This document shows positions 15,070 to 20,564 of a DNA stretch of 64,000 nt, piece by piece. The stretch's first letter is position 1, and every line of letters begins with the position of its first letter. Under the pieces are notes generated by a model. The model was not told the origin of the DNA. It did not search any database and saw nothing but the letters and a program-made list of their open reading frames with translations. Made by a program: the position numbers and the translations under genes. The stretch is from Streptomyces sp. NBC_00513 (GTDB lineage Bacteria; Actinomycetota; Actinomycetes; Streptomycetales; Streptomycetaceae): positions 434,001 through 498,000 of the forward strand of contig NZ_CP107845.1 in NCBI RefSeq assembly GCF_041431415.1, given 5' to 3'.

Positions 15070-16422
15070 TACTGCAATCACACTTGTGTGTGGTTGAGTT
15101 GGTGTGTGACTGAGCTCGGGGTGGGGTTGGTTGAGGAGTGGGACGGGATGCTGGCCGGGCTGCATGCCCGGTTCGCATCGCGTTTCGTGAGGTCGGAGCC
15201 GCGGGGTCGGGCGCTTGCGTATATGCGGGGTCTGATCGCGCCGTTGGAGCGGAAGAACGGCTGGACTCTGGCGGAACGGGCGGGTGACCGGCTACCGATC
15301 GGGATGCAGCGCCTGCTGGGCGAGGCGGACTGGGACGCGGAAGCGGTCCGTGACGACGTGCGGGACTACGTCGTCGAGACCATCGGCGACAAGGGTGCGG
15401 TCCTGATCGGCGACGACACCGGCTTCCTGAAGAAGGGCGTGCGCTCGGCAGGCGTCCAGCGGCAGTATTCCGGCACCGCCGGACGTACCGAAAACTGCCA
15501 GGTCGGCACGTTCCTGGCCTATGCCTCGCCCAAGGGGCGGGCCCTGATTGACCGGGAACTGTATCTGCCCGCCTCGTGGACGGACGACCGCGAGCGATGC
15601 CGTGACGCGGGAATCCCCGACGAGGTTTACTTCGCGACGAAGACCGAACACTTCAAGGCGATGCTCGTCCGTGCGGTGGAGGCCGGCGTCCCGTTCGCGT
15701 GGGTCACAGCGGACGAGGCCTACGGGCAGTCGAAATCGTTGCGGTGTTGGATGGAACAACGGTCCATCAGCCATGTGATGTGTGTGAAGACCAGCGACAC
15801 CGTCATCACCCGCGGCATGGGCGAACGTCGTGTCGACGACCTCGTCGCCGGCCTCGCGCCGCAGTCCTGGAAGCGCCTGTCCGCCGGTAAGGGATCCCAC
15901 GGCGAGCGCATGTACCAGTGGGCGCGAATCCCGATCCGGATCTGGTGGGAGAACGGCCACGGCCACTGGGTCCTGGCCCGTCGCAGCCTCAAAGACCCGA
16001 CCGACATCGCCTACTACGTCTGCTACGGACCTGCTGGCACCCGGATGAAAGACCTGGTCAGGGTTGCCGGCGCCCGCTGGGCTGTCGAAGAATGCTTCCA
16101 GACCGCCAAGGGCGAGTGCGGCCTGGACCACTACCAGGTCCGCCTCTACCACGCCTGGTACCGACACATCACCCTCGCTATGGCCGCCCTCGCTGCACTC
16201 GCCGCCGTCCGCGCCCACGAACTCTCAAAAGGGAAACAGCGGTGGCCTGATACCGCTGTCCGTAGCGGAGATACGCCGCCTCATCGGCCACCTCCTCCAT
16301 CCCCACCACCTCACCGTCCACCACCATCTGCACTGGTCACACTGGCGAAGACTCAGTCAGACACGCGCCCGCGACAGCCACTACAAACAACGCGGACATA
16401 CCCCTTAACTGTGATTGCAGTA
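15070..16422 (+). mobile_element. IS701-family insertion sequence (1,353 bp)
   Basis: The ends are perfect 13-bp inverted repeats, TACTGCAATCACA at 15070-15082 and its complement at 16410-16422. CTAG lies on both sides, consistent with the 4-bp YTAR duplications described for this family. The element carries one transposase gene in the plus orientation, filling nearly its whole length. Confidence 0.9.
15106..16408 (+). pseudogene. IS701-family transposase with late frameshift
   Basis: The DDE transposase is readable from the GTG at 15106. It has the first aspartate in AVLIGDDTGFLKKGVRSAGV, the second in WVTADEAYG, and the glutamate block in WAVEECFQTAKGECGLDHYQ. Near 16235, at an A/G run, the reading moves to the +1 frame, where the usual C-terminus continues (GLIPLSVAEIRRLIGHLL). 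In the original frame the protein instead runs on through a proline-rich nonsense tail to 16437. All catalytic residues precede the shift, so residual activity is conceivable, but the C-terminal ~55 residues are lost. Confidence 0.75.
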
Positions 16423-16426
16423 CTAG
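16423..16426. repeat. CTAG target-site copy 2
   Basis: The tetranucleotide is shared between the right end of the IS701-type element and the left end of the first IS5-type element. Confidence 0.85.
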
Positions 16427-16487
16427 GGGCTGTGTGATGTCGTGATCAGTTCTGGGGTTCTGTCCTCTTCGCGGGGTGGAACCCGGT

Positions 16488-17479
16488 ATGACTGTGGTCG
16501 TGACACGCAGGCAACTCACCAATGCCCAGTGGAAGTTCATCGAGCCGTACCTGCCGATCGGTAGGTACGGCCCCTACCCGGAGCGGTTGCGGGAGCAGTT
16601 CGAGGGTGTGGTCTGGCGGTTCCGGTCCAGTGCCCAGTGGCGGGAGATGCCTGCCGAGTTCGGCCCCTGGGCCACCGTCTACGGACGCTTCCGCGTCTGG
16701 CGGGACGCCGGTGTCTTCACCGCCCTGCTGGAAGGCCTGATCGCTGAGGGGGCCCGGGTGGGAAGAACGGACTTGTCGCTGGTCAGCGTGGACTCCACAA
16801 CGGTCCGCGCCCACCACGACGCCGCAGGGATGCGCGTCAGCAAGCACCTCATGGAGGCCCTGGAAGAAGCCGCGCAGGAGCAGGAGGCGGCCCGCCAAAA
16901 AGGGGCGGACCGGAGGAACAGAACGGACAGGCCGAGCGTCGGCGGATCCGACGCAGACGCAAACTCCGCCTGAAGGAAGCCCTGCTCGGCAGGTCCCGCG
17001 GCGGCTTGACCAGCAAGATTCACCTCGCTGCGGACCTCAGGTGTCGTCCGCTTGCGTTGGTCCTGACTCCCGGGCAGGCCGGGGACAGCCCGCAGTTAAT
17101 CCCGGTGCTCGCGCGGGTGAAGATCCGGCTGGCTGTCGGCCGTCCCCGCACCAGGCCCGACGCAGTCGCCGCGGACAAGGCCTACTCGTCCCGCGGCAAC
17201 CGCGCCTACCTGCGCAAACGCGGAATCAAGGCCGTCATCCCGGAAAAGCGGGACCAGGCCGCCAACCGCAAGAAGAAGGGCGCACGAGGCGGCCGGCCCA
17301 TCAGCCATGACGCCGACCTCTACAAGGAACGGAACACGGTCGAACGCCTGATCAACAAGCTGAAGGCCTGGCGAGGCATCGCCACCCGCTATGACAAGAC
17401 ACCTGAGAGCTACCTCGCCGGCCTCCACCTCCGCGCCGCAATGATCTGGATCGACGACCTGCTGAAGACCGACGAATGA
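16488..17479 (+). CDS. IS5-family transposase, two frames joined by -1 frameshift
   Basis: Frame one (to 16973) has RRQLTNAQWKFIEPYLPIG and the first aspartate in LSLVSVDSTTVRAHHDAAG. At 16895-16905 the sequence CCAAAAAGGGG allows a -1 slip. The -1 frame continues without interruption through SRGGLTSKIHLAADLRCRPL, VAADKAYSSRGNRAYLRKRG (second aspartate) and ERNTVERLINKLKAWRGIAT (glutamate), ending at 17479. Programmed -1 frameshifting on A-rich runs is established for several IS5 subgroups. The product catalyses cut-and-paste transposition of its own element. Confidence 0.85.
16895..16905 (+). promoter_or_regulatory. Slippery site for -1 frameshifting in IS5 element A
   Basis: The tract CCAAAAAGGGG lets the tRNAs on CAA-AAA re-pair one base back, and exactly that shift joins the two transposase frames. 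Confidence 0.65.
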
Positions 17480-17498
17480 TCACGACATCACACAGGCC

Positions 17499-17502
17499 CT
17501 AG
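17499..17502. repeat. CTAG target-site copy 3
   Basis: The tetranucleotide is shared between IS5 element A and IS5 element B. Confidence 0.85.
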
Positions 17503-18202
17503 GCCGTTTCCTTCGGATCATCTGGCTGACCAGATGAAGATGGCTGCGAGGTGGAGTCCGGCGAGGTAGATGGTGGCGGTCTTGTCGTAGCGGGTGGGTG
17601 CGCCACGAGGCGCCATGGAATCGAGTGAGGTGAGAGACCTTCACCACCGGGTTGTCGTAGCAATCCGGTTGAAGCTGGGGGCAGTTCGGTTCGGGGGATG
17701 CCGAGCCGAGCGGTAAGCAGCCCCGACAACGCCGGGACGGGTTGGTACTGCCAGACGATCCGGGTCCGGCTAGCGAGACAGGAAGGTGCACGCGAGAAAT
17801 CAGTGCCTGACGCCCCGTAATTACGACACCGGCTCGAACCTGGCGGATCTGGGCCGGACGCAGTGCACGACCACCAGCGCTCTTCGGTGGTCGACTCCGA
17901 AGCCGACTCCATTCATCGGTGGGGAGGCCACGCCGAAAGTCTGCGGCGTAAGCGTGGCGATGCTGCCGGGGTAGAGCTGGGCACCTCACCTGTCGATCGA
18001 TTTCGTGGTGAACGTGGGAACTGTCCGCGGTCGTCCCTGTATCGGACATCCAGTCCGGTCGGGGACAGGTCCATCGCCGGCTGATGGCCGTCGGGCAGGA
18101 CGGAGGCTCCGTAGTACTCCGAGGCCGGGAAAGCCGGTCACATGGGGAAGGGGGCCAGCAAGTCGGCAGTAAGGAGACTGGAATGCCAGGAGGCTGTCGC
18201 CG

Positions 18203-19633
18203 GTGAATACCGACGAGCTGGAATGGGCCTTGATGAAGGCCGAACGCCGGGTACTGGAGATCCAGACCAAGCTGCACCGTTGGGCTGTCGATGATTCTCA
18301 TCGCAGGTTCGACGACCTGTTCAACCTCGTGGCCGATCCCGCCTTCCTGTTGGTGGCGTGGGACCGTGTCCGGGGAAACAAGGGTGCCCGCACGGCCGGA
18401 GTGGATGGGAAGACCGCCCGCTCCATCGAGGTCGGGCAAGGGGTCGAGACGTTTCTCGACAAGCTGCGGACCCAGATCAGAGACCGCAGCTTCTATCCGG
18501 TCCCTGTCCGCGAGCGGATGATTCCCAAGGCGAATGGCAAGCTTCGTCGTCTCGGGATTCCGACCGTGGCGGACCGAGTGGTCCAGGCGTCCTTGAAGCT
18601 GGTGCTGGAGCCGGTATTCGAAGCGGATTTCCTCCCGTGTTCTTATGGGTTCCGCCCGAACCGCCGAGCCCACGATGCGATCGCCGAGAGTCGCTACCTC
18701 GCCAGCCACGGATACGAGTGGGTGGTGGAGGGCGACATCACGGCGTGCTTCGACGAGATCGCGCACCCGGCCCTCATGGAACGGGTGCGGAATCGAATCG
18801 GGGACAAGCGGGTGCTGTCCTTGGTGAAGGCGTTCTTGAAGTCCGGGATCTTGTCCCGTGACGGAGCTTTCACGGACACACGCACCGGGACCCCGCAGGG
18901 CGGGATCCTGTCGCCGCTGCTGGCCAACATCGCACTCTCGGTCCTGGACGAGCACATCGCCCAGGCCCCCGGAGGGCCAGATGGCACCTCCGAGGACCGG
19001 CGCAGGAGACGGCGCCGAGGATTGCCCAACTACCGGCTGGTCCGGTACGCGGACGACTTCCTCGTACTCGTCTTCGGGCGCCGCGAACATGCCGAGGAAC
19101 TACGCGACGAGGTCGCAGAGGCATTGAAGTCGATGGGCCTTCGCCTGTCGGTGGAGAAGACAAAGATCACGCACATTGACGAGGGCCTTGATTTTCTCGG
19201 ATGGCGCATCCAGCGCCACTGGAAACGGGGCACTGACCGGCAGTACATCTACACCTATCCCGCACGGAAGTCAGTACGTTCCGTAACGGGCAAGGTGAAG
19301 GAACTGACCGGACGACAGAACGTCGGCCTGTCGCTGGAGTCCTTGCTCCACCGACTGAACTCGGTGTTGCGAGGATGGTGCGCGTATTTCCGTCCCGGAG
19401 TGTCGAACGTCGCTTTCTGTTACCTCAGCCACTACACGTGGATGAGGGTGACTAGATGGATCCGGCGCAAACATCCCGGAATCACTTGGAAGCAGCTCCG
19501 CCGACGTTATTACAGCGGCGGCTGGTGGCCTGTCACAGAGGAAGCGGAACTGCTCAACCCGGCAAAGGTAAGCACGACCAGATACCGATACCGGGGAAAA
19601 CTCATTCCGTCTCCGTGGCCCACTACGGCATGA
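18203..19633 (+). CDS. ltrA: Group II intron reverse transcriptase/maturase
   Basis: This 476-residue protein has the usual RT blocks: VRGNKGARTAGVDGKTARSI (RT1), IPKANGKLRRLGIPTVADRV (RT2), CSYGFRPNRRAHDAI (RT2a/3), GDITACFDEIAHPALMERVR (catalytic Asp), GTPQGGILSPLLANIALSVL and the YADD centre in LVRYADDFLVLVFGRREHAE. Domain X (maturase) follows, with RGWCAYFRPGVSNVAFCYLS. There is no HNH endonuclease domain at the C-terminus, so mobility would rely on priming other than second-strand cleavage. The GTG start has AGGAGG 9 nt upstream. It acts with the intron RNA in splicing and retrohoming. Confidence 0.93.
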   Translation: MNTDELEWALMKAERRVLEIQTKLHRWAVDDSHRRFDDLFNLVADPAFLLVAWDRVRGNKGARTAGVDGKTARSIEVGQGVETFLDKLRTQIRDRSFYPVPVRERMIPKANGKLRRLGIPTVADRVVQASLKLVLEPVFEADFLPCSYGFRPNRRAHDAIAESRYLASHGYEWVVEGDITACFDEIAHPALMERVRNRIGDKRVLSLVKAFLKSGILSRDGAFTDTRTGTPQGGILSPLLANIALSVLDEHIAQAPGGPDGTSEDRRRRRRRGLPNYRLVRYADDFLVLVFGRREHAEELRDEVAEALKSMGLRLSVEKTKITHIDEGLDFLGWRIQRHWKRGTDRQYIYTYPARKSVRSVTGKVKELTGRQNVGLSLESLLHRLNSVLRGWCAYFRPGVSNVAFCYLSHYTWMRVTRWIRRKHPGITWKQLRRRYYSGGWWPVTEEAELLNPAKVSTTRYRYRGKLIPSPWPTTA

Positions 19634-19665
19634 GGAACTGAACACCCCGGAACGAGATTTGTGGA

Positions 19666-19699
19666 GAGCCCGGTGCCCGGAGACGGGCACGCCGGGTTC
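19666..19699 (+). ncRNA. Group II intron domain V
   Basis: This 34-nt hairpin has an 8-bp lower stem starting GAGCCCGG, a two-base CG bulge on the 3' side, a 6-bp upper stem and a GAGA tetraloop. The AGC at positions 2-4 corresponds to the catalytic triad. A domain VI-like stem follows between 19700 and 19762. Confidence 0.9.
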
Positions 19700-20564
19700 G
19701 GGAGGCGGCTCGGGGAAACCCACTGGTGGAAACATCAGCAGGGCGCCCCGAGTCGACCTCACCCAGGCCGCGCCATTGTTTGAGCTTGTTGATGCAGCGT
19801 TCGACGGTGTTCCGTTGCTTGTAGGCCTCGCGGTCGAAGGCCGGTGGCCTGCCACCGCGGCTGCCGAGGCGCTTGCGGTTGGCGGCCTGGTCGGCGGGCT
19901 GGGGGATCACCGCCCGGATCCCGCGCCGACGCAGGTGGGAGCGGATCGCGCGGGACGAGTAGGCCTTGTCGGCCAGGACCACGTCCGGGGCCACCCTCGG
20001 TCTGCCGACCGGCCTCGGGATCCGTAAGCGGGCCATGACCTTCGGGAACGCGGGTGCGTCACCGGCCTGGCCGGATGTGATGAGGAAGGCCAGGGGCCGG
20101 CAGCGATTGTCGGCGGCCAGGTGGATCTTCGTGGTCAGTCCGCCGCGGGACCGTCCGAGGGCATGGTCGGCGGGCTCGCCGTCCGGGGCCCCTTCTGACG
20201 GGCCCCGGCGGCGTGCTGGTGGGCACGGACGATCGTGGAGTCGACCGCGACGACCCACTCCAGGTCGCCCTCGGCGTCGGCCTGGGCGAGGAGAGCGGTG
20301 AAGACCTTCTCCCAGGTGCTGTCGGCCGCCCACTTCCGCAGCCGGTTGTGGGCACCCTTCCACGAGCCGAAGTGCTCGGGCAGGTCCATCCACGGCGTGC
20401 CCGTGCGGTACTTGAACGCGATCGCGTCGATCACCTGGCGGTGGTCACGCCACCGCCCGCCCCGTTTCGGTGCCCGGTCTGGCAACAAGGGCTCAATTCA
20501 TGCCCACTGGGCATCAGTCAACGACACACATCAACCAATGATCAGATGATCCGAAGGAAACGGC

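Follow-up and report, generated by a model that had tools for sequence, protein, structure and literature searches.

In this work we describe a complete group II intron inserted in antisense into the transposase gene of an IS5-family element. We consider it very probable that it represents a mobile lineage of the IIB type, lacking a detected endonuclease, which finds its antisense target by base pairing. Comparison of sequences established the anatomy of the element, covarying pairings in its RNA, a target common to the lineage copies examined, movement of the intron between divergent IS5 elements and purifying selection on its reverse transcriptase (RT). It is an element of a known kind with an unusual inherited specificity. 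The window, i.e. the whole stretch of DNA analysed (64,000 nucleotides), covers 434–498 kb of the main contig of an 8.62-Mb genome. All positions below are those of the window, and the intron contains:

17598–19762, plus strand: complete group II intron, GTGCG...AC (Rfam match, ends shared by copies, folding, empty site)
18203–19633, plus strand: intron-encoded protein (IEP), RT/maturase of 476 aa, no HNH found (TIGR04416, RVT_1, GIIM)
19666–19699, plus strand: domain V, 34-nt hairpin (Rfam match, folding)
19702–19760, plus strand: domain VI with bulged (branch) A at 19756 (folding)

The preliminary description of this DNA had reported an intron with ends exact to the base, carrying a 34-nt domain V and a maturase gene devoid of an HNH domain, and all these points hold. 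Rfam Intron_gpII matches 19664–19762 with 51.6 bits (gathering threshold 40), the end of the match being the last intron base. Exactly 2165 nt are common to three genomic copies, the window's included, and the sequences diverge outside; the alignment with an empty site, given below, agrees. The bulged A of domain VI stands six bases before the last intron base, and the 108 nt around domains V–VI have a folding energy z-score of −6.65. In a consensus of 30 sequences at least one double change was found in 23 of the 37 pairs of these domains, and in the 5′ part of the intron (23 sequences) in 96 of 160 predicted pairs. The folding check suggested earlier is answered by the covariance match, both 3′ domains and a 5′ fold with covarying pairs; domain I–III structure with covariation is present when the 5′ part is taken as a whole, its domains not being individually delimited. 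Domains V and VI, GUGYG and AY ends which close to an empty junction, and an IEP with RT and maturase parts characterize a mobile group II intron. That it can splice and retrohome may be indicated, if only indirectly, by the copies and the selection described below. A sigma-70-like promoter was sought in 17300–18300 and none was seen, in a weak test (shuffles gave 0.2).

The product of 18203–19633 is a group II RT/maturase, matching TIGR04416 with 373 bits as well as RVT_1 and GIIM. Domain scans of the 476-aa protein reported no HNH family, so that the C-terminal HNH of the endonuclease-containing IEP classes (B, CL, ML) was not detected in it. Between the window's copy and seven lineage copies the dN/dS of the RT was 0.10–0.17 (an eighth copy, L022, was omitted, having no ORF with the start motif used), and as judged by this ratio the RT of the lineage evolves under purifying selection. 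Among the matches listed, the closest named relative is that of Streptomyces sp. WM4235 (IEP identity 99%), from which the host is taken to be a Streptomyces; an IEP from a plasmid of Rhodococcus jostii RHA1 is 55.6% identical. Ca.ac.I1 and Rh.js.I1 are actinobacterial introns. The RHA1 relative suggests that the window's IEP may fall into group g1 of the endonuclease-less IEPs, which includes both Ca.ac.I1 and Rh.js.I1 (Toro and Martinez-Abarca 2013, PMC3552965).

The intron resides in an element with the following parts:

17503–20564, minus strand: host IS5-family element including the intron (22-nt terminal inverted repeats, CTAG on both sides)
17503–17524 and 20543–20564: the 22-nt terminal inverted repeats of the host IS5 (read from the sequence)
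20135–20488, minus strand: first transposase frame (DUF4096), with an in-frame stop upstream (ORF list, domain scans, flank joining)
19763–20393, minus strand: second transposase frame, upstream part (DDE_Tnp_1; ORF list, domain scan, flank joining)
17518–17597, minus strand: second transposase frame, C-terminal part, TRYDKTATIYLAGLHLAAIFIWSAR (flank joining)

Upstream of the intron and in its direction lie an IS701-family transposase gene (15088–16437) and another IS5 in two frames (16476–16973, 17006–17479).

When the intron is removed and the flanks are joined, the transposase C-terminus reads ...RGL-A-TRYDKTATIYLAGLHLAAIFIWSAR* and the second frame is restored through ...RGLATRYDKTATIYLAGLHL.... 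The earlier statement that excision restores the IS5 coding sequence is thus correct for the second of the two overlapping frames, with the reservation that the first carries an in-frame stop near its start, for which reason this copy probably lacks an intact transposase even without the intron. The orientation given earlier was also confirmed: the intron is antisense to the transposase gene and hence unspliceable from its mRNA. Empty IS5 copies with the predicted junction do occur elsewhere. The 200-nt joined junction, searched in 246 genomes, gave some match in 227, the best being in a genome of the same genus (G064) with two copies, where 199 of the 200 nt align at 94% with equal lengths on both sides (one copy read). 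Among 72,556 plasmid records a match was found in 405, and in 105 of these one place covered at least 80% of the query.

What the intron recognizes was deduced from its exon-binding (EBS) and intron-binding (IBS) sites:

17584–17589, plus strand: IBS2 in the 5′ exon, antisense of the transposase Tyr-Asp codons (pairing)
17592–17597, plus strand: IBS1 in the 5′ exon, antisense of Ala, Thr and the first Arg base of the transposase (pairing)
17822–17827, plus strand: EBS2, intron nt 225–230, TACGAC, 6/6 with IBS2 (exon permutation; unpaired loop of the consensus fold)
17909–17914, plus strand: EBS1, intron nt 312–317, CCATTC, 6/6 with IBS1 including two G-U pairs (exon permutation; hairpin loop)
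17974, plus strand: EBS3, intron nt 377, G opposite C at +1 of the 3′ exon (best column for +1)
17382–17398, minus strand: unoccupied near-target in the neighbouring IS5 (16476–17479, plus strand), with one IBS2 mismatch; this variant is occupied at locus L021

An alignment was made of 62 related introns over their first 560 nt, and the 48 with distinct 5′ exons were used; every 6-nt intron segment was scored for its pairing with the intron's own exon and with permuted exons of the other introns. This procedure needed no structural model beforehand to locate EBS1, EBS2 and EBS3. Each exon segment had a single outstanding position, nt 312–317 for exon −6 to −1 and nt 225–230 for exon −14 to −9. 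Pairing of EBS1 with the intron's own exon amounted to 4.71 of 6 positions versus 2.62 (sd 0.17) after permutation, and that of EBS2 to 5.00 versus 2.93 (sd 0.17); neither value was reached in 10,000 permutations (n=48). With the window's lineage excluded (n=39) the figures were 4.54 versus 2.49 and 4.79 versus 2.88, both above all permutations. Within that lineage (n=9 exons) EBS1 fits its own exon no better than its neighbours' (5.44 versus 5.23, a value reached in 1270 of 10,000 permutations) and EBS2 is invariant, so the proof of pairing rests on the comparison between lineages. For the +1 base, nt 377 was the best column (0.85 versus 0.42; n=33 rows with distinct 3′ exons, seven 3′ ends being placed at AC and L098 dropped).

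Introns of the IIB type bind the 5′ exon through EBS1 and EBS2 and read +1 by a separate EBS3, not by the base beside EBS1, while IIC introns use a short IBS1 only and insert behind a stem-loop. The window's intron recognizes its exons in the IIB manner, with EBS1, EBS2 and a separate EBS3, and as nt 377 stands away from EBS1, the +1 base is read in a IIB-like way. It does not fit IIC, for EBS2 pairing exists and no terminator-like site was found in 17300–18300 (shuffles gave 0.4).

On the opposite strand the paired exon corresponds to the IS5 transposase codons A|T-R-Y-D-K, close to the C-terminus of the protein; bases two and three of the Arg codon make up the spacer that separates IBS1 from IBS2. 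This motif in antisense, or a one-residue variant of it, was present at all 22 examined 5′ junctions found by intron similarity: TRYDK in 19, TRYEK in L166, TRFDK in L184 and TRYDR in L169. The set comprises L017–L025, L027, L029, L059, L089–L092, L108, L166, L168, L177 (in Embleya), L184 and L169; L184 and L169 are short intron pieces, and beyond TRYDR the L169 target is unlike IS5. As a number of copies 22 is a lower bound, two candidates having been scored per genome and a single one (H56) examined of 90 plasmid records. The junctions are not all independent, L059 and L090 being the same site and L019 and L020 possibly sharing an ancestor. Outside the count stand L185, L026, L028 and L031, which have no 5′ junction, and L149, L156 and L162/L167, left out because they were found only by the target pattern. 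That pattern, scanned through the genus, gave 18 places in 14 of 392 genomes; L151, L152, L159, L160 and L161, once read, proved unrelated to the intron, and remnants were represented by L156 (about 12 nt of intron), L149 (the first 18 nt) and L154 (a 51-nt piece).

The 3′ flank continues as an IS5 transposase in 15 of the 20 loci with a 3′ junction. It is not IS5 in L019, L020, L022 and L108, and in L029 it is so for about 11 codons only. An NCBIfam scan of translations from the 3′ side assigned 9 of 10 to the IS5 family, L029 being the miss; these are pieces, some of them below the curated cut-off. At L019 (6096–6545) and L020 the 5′ exon is IS5, the 3′ exon is not, and the same flank begins in both. 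Some match to the L019 flank occurred in 16 of 41 genomes searched, the full 450 nt only in its own genome, and no empty site was among them; the foreign flank may stem from a deletion, from introns recombining with each other or from entry of the intron into a remnant. Two further copies are altered internally. L108 (1501–2411), at an antisense TRYDK site, is devoid of intron nt 590–1839 (most of the ORF) and retains domains V–VI, and in L024 (956–5559) intron nt 553 and 554 are separated by about 2.4 kb of other sequence.

Taken together, these pairings indicate that the orientation of the intron in IS5 is set by EBS1, EBS2 and EBS3 binding to the antisense strand. The preliminary description had seen in the antisense position a sign of retrohoming on replication-fork strands, and this part of it we do not retain. 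An orientation dictated by the fork-strand preference of an endonuclease-less intron would be in line with the failure of the domain scans to report an HNH family and with the literature, which describes endonuclease-minus introns using nascent strands at the fork (PMC4424553) and a preference of RmInt1 for the lagging-strand template (PMC5894124). Moreover, 8 of 11 copies occupy one template strand. However, EBS–IBS pairing fixes an orientation that is constant in the lineage copies examined (22 of 22 junctions), so no fork argument is needed, and 8 leading-strand against 3 lagging-strand templates is no clear bias (two-sided binomial about 0.23). We therefore regard the fork explanation of orientation as highly improbable. 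The eleven copies, which include the remnants L156 and L184 and the ORF-deleted L108, come from six genomes in which dnaA was located: the intron-bearing strand is the leading-strand template in three copies of G000, one of G013 (at 68.8 kb), two of G218 and one each of G025 and G057. For the copies at 327 kb and 8.80 Mb of G013 and for that of G193 it is the lagging-strand template. Priming of cDNA synthesis at forks stays plausible only by analogy with RmInt1, no HNH having been found.

The host genome contains three copies of the intron, of which one has no difference from the window's copy and another has one. The IS5 elements that house the two identical introns at the same position are 86% alike over 806 nt, and in G013 three identical introns reside in three different IS5 elements. 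Since identical introns share a site in hosts so divergent, the intron moved by itself. Passive spread, in which the intron is carried inside IS5 by transposition or homologous recombination, is conceivable insofar as the terminal repeats and the CTAG on either side are still in place and the IS could be moved in trans, and L059 and L090 do lie at the same site. Carriage of this kind fails to explain why introns without a difference sit in IS5 elements only 86% alike, or in three IS5 types of one genome, and we consider it very improbable. Recombination confined to the intron is a remote alternative source of identical copies.

Could the lineage be a decaying remnant devoid of present mobility? 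Truncated or fragmentary members (L149, L169, L184), the ORF-deleted L108 and the split L024 would agree with it. Against it speak the identical multiple copies within genomes, purifying selection, the covarying ribozyme and the 476-aa ORF, which is intact in the window; together they make such a state very improbable.

A branch with 100/99 support sets the antisense group (16 different rows) apart from all others in the tree of 76 IEPs, and a single state change is sufficient. The nearest sister of this group is L030 + L096, joined with weak support (93/55), and L030 is in sense. Among the relatives outside the lineage, 35 loci with an open frame reaching the junction were scanned for targets in sense. 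A family was matched at E ≤0.001 in 22 of these 35 loci, most often a transposase, several matches falling below the curated cut-off, where only gene pieces were given; 13 loci gave no family match. The families were ISAzo13, IS256, IS3/IS481, IS30, IS630, ISL3, IS4 and other transposases, with a GH19 chitinase (L030), methyltransferases (L033, L098, L110) and an RT (L034, weak) as targets of other kinds. Antisense translations of ten loci and of L052 (twin of L094) gave no match; among other unassigned loci antisense targets are possible. L030 lies in sense inside the GH19 chitinase gene, and L098 and L110 are in sense in Methyltransf_19 genes, just before the GGKD motif.

The base-pairing reading may be put as follows. 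The mobile unit would be an RNA–protein particle of IIB-type intron RNA and an IEP without a detected endonuclease, the mode of intron transcription being presumed. Through EBS2, EBS1 and EBS3 the RNA would pair with the antisense DNA strand of the A|T-R-Y-D-K codons, a motif conserved toward the C-terminus in transposases of the IS5 family, presumably reverse-splice into this strand and be copied by its own RT, probably with the nascent strand at the fork as cDNA primer. Because divergent IS5 elements hardly vary in this target, a single specificity suffices for many sites; because the target is the antisense strand, the copy cannot be spliced from transposase mRNA and the transposase is broken for good. 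Each insertion thus appears to break the host transposase gene.

The closest known systems differ in several respects. RmInt1 and RmInt2 of Sinorhizobium meliloti (class D) likewise have IEPs without an endonuclease and live in IS elements, whose spread they have been argued to limit (PMC4238363, PMC5894124). In ISRm2011-2 RmInt1 is also within the transposase-coding region, yet its splicing from mRNA is called essential for IS mobility (PMC4238363), whereas the window's intron is antisense and unspliceable there. RmInt2 uses IS inverted repeats (PMC4238363, PMC5894124) and not a coding motif. Group IIC-attC introns include a lineage opposite in orientation to the gene cassettes; these introns enter after or into the attC stem-loop (PMC7923331), whereas here EBS1 and EBS2 read antisense transposase codons. 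The Thermosynechococcus TeI introns are also among the closest systems; the word antisense is absent from their description (PMC2882425). A literature search on antisense group II introns, covering mostly titles and beginnings of abstracts and few subscription journals, found no clade-wide antisense transposase target defined by pairing.

Group II introns are usually thought to be tolerated in genes because they are spliced out. The whole lineage described here, whose RT is under selection, occupies genes from which it cannot be spliced, reading a codon motif on the wrong strand. Tentatively, and with considerable doubt, one may suppose that a single lineage switched from sense to antisense targeting, giving up the harmlessness conferred by splicing and gaining a target present in DNA only, and so became a natural predator of the whole IS5 family; every insertion would then disable an IS5. 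In such a case even abundant transposase mRNA could not trap the intron particle, since the EBS elements and the mRNA are of like sense and unable to pair, and antisense targeting might hypothetically be advantageous through this escape. Targeting of mRNA has a reported precedent in Ll.LtrB (PMC6003770). Whether antisense targeting frees the intron from host mRNA, and whether it controls IS5 load, become testable questions.

Introns in turn may serve as targets. L103, L104, L106 (1501–3643, in intron orientation) and L149 form one small lineage whose members lie in another group II intron, 18 nt in from its 5′ end. EBS1 and EBS2 of these introns pair with the conserved nucleotides at the start of the resident. 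The target gene of L103 is that of its resident intron. In L149 the intron, identical to L103 in 96 of the first 100 nt, sits inside an 18-nt piece of an intron at the antisense TRYDK site.
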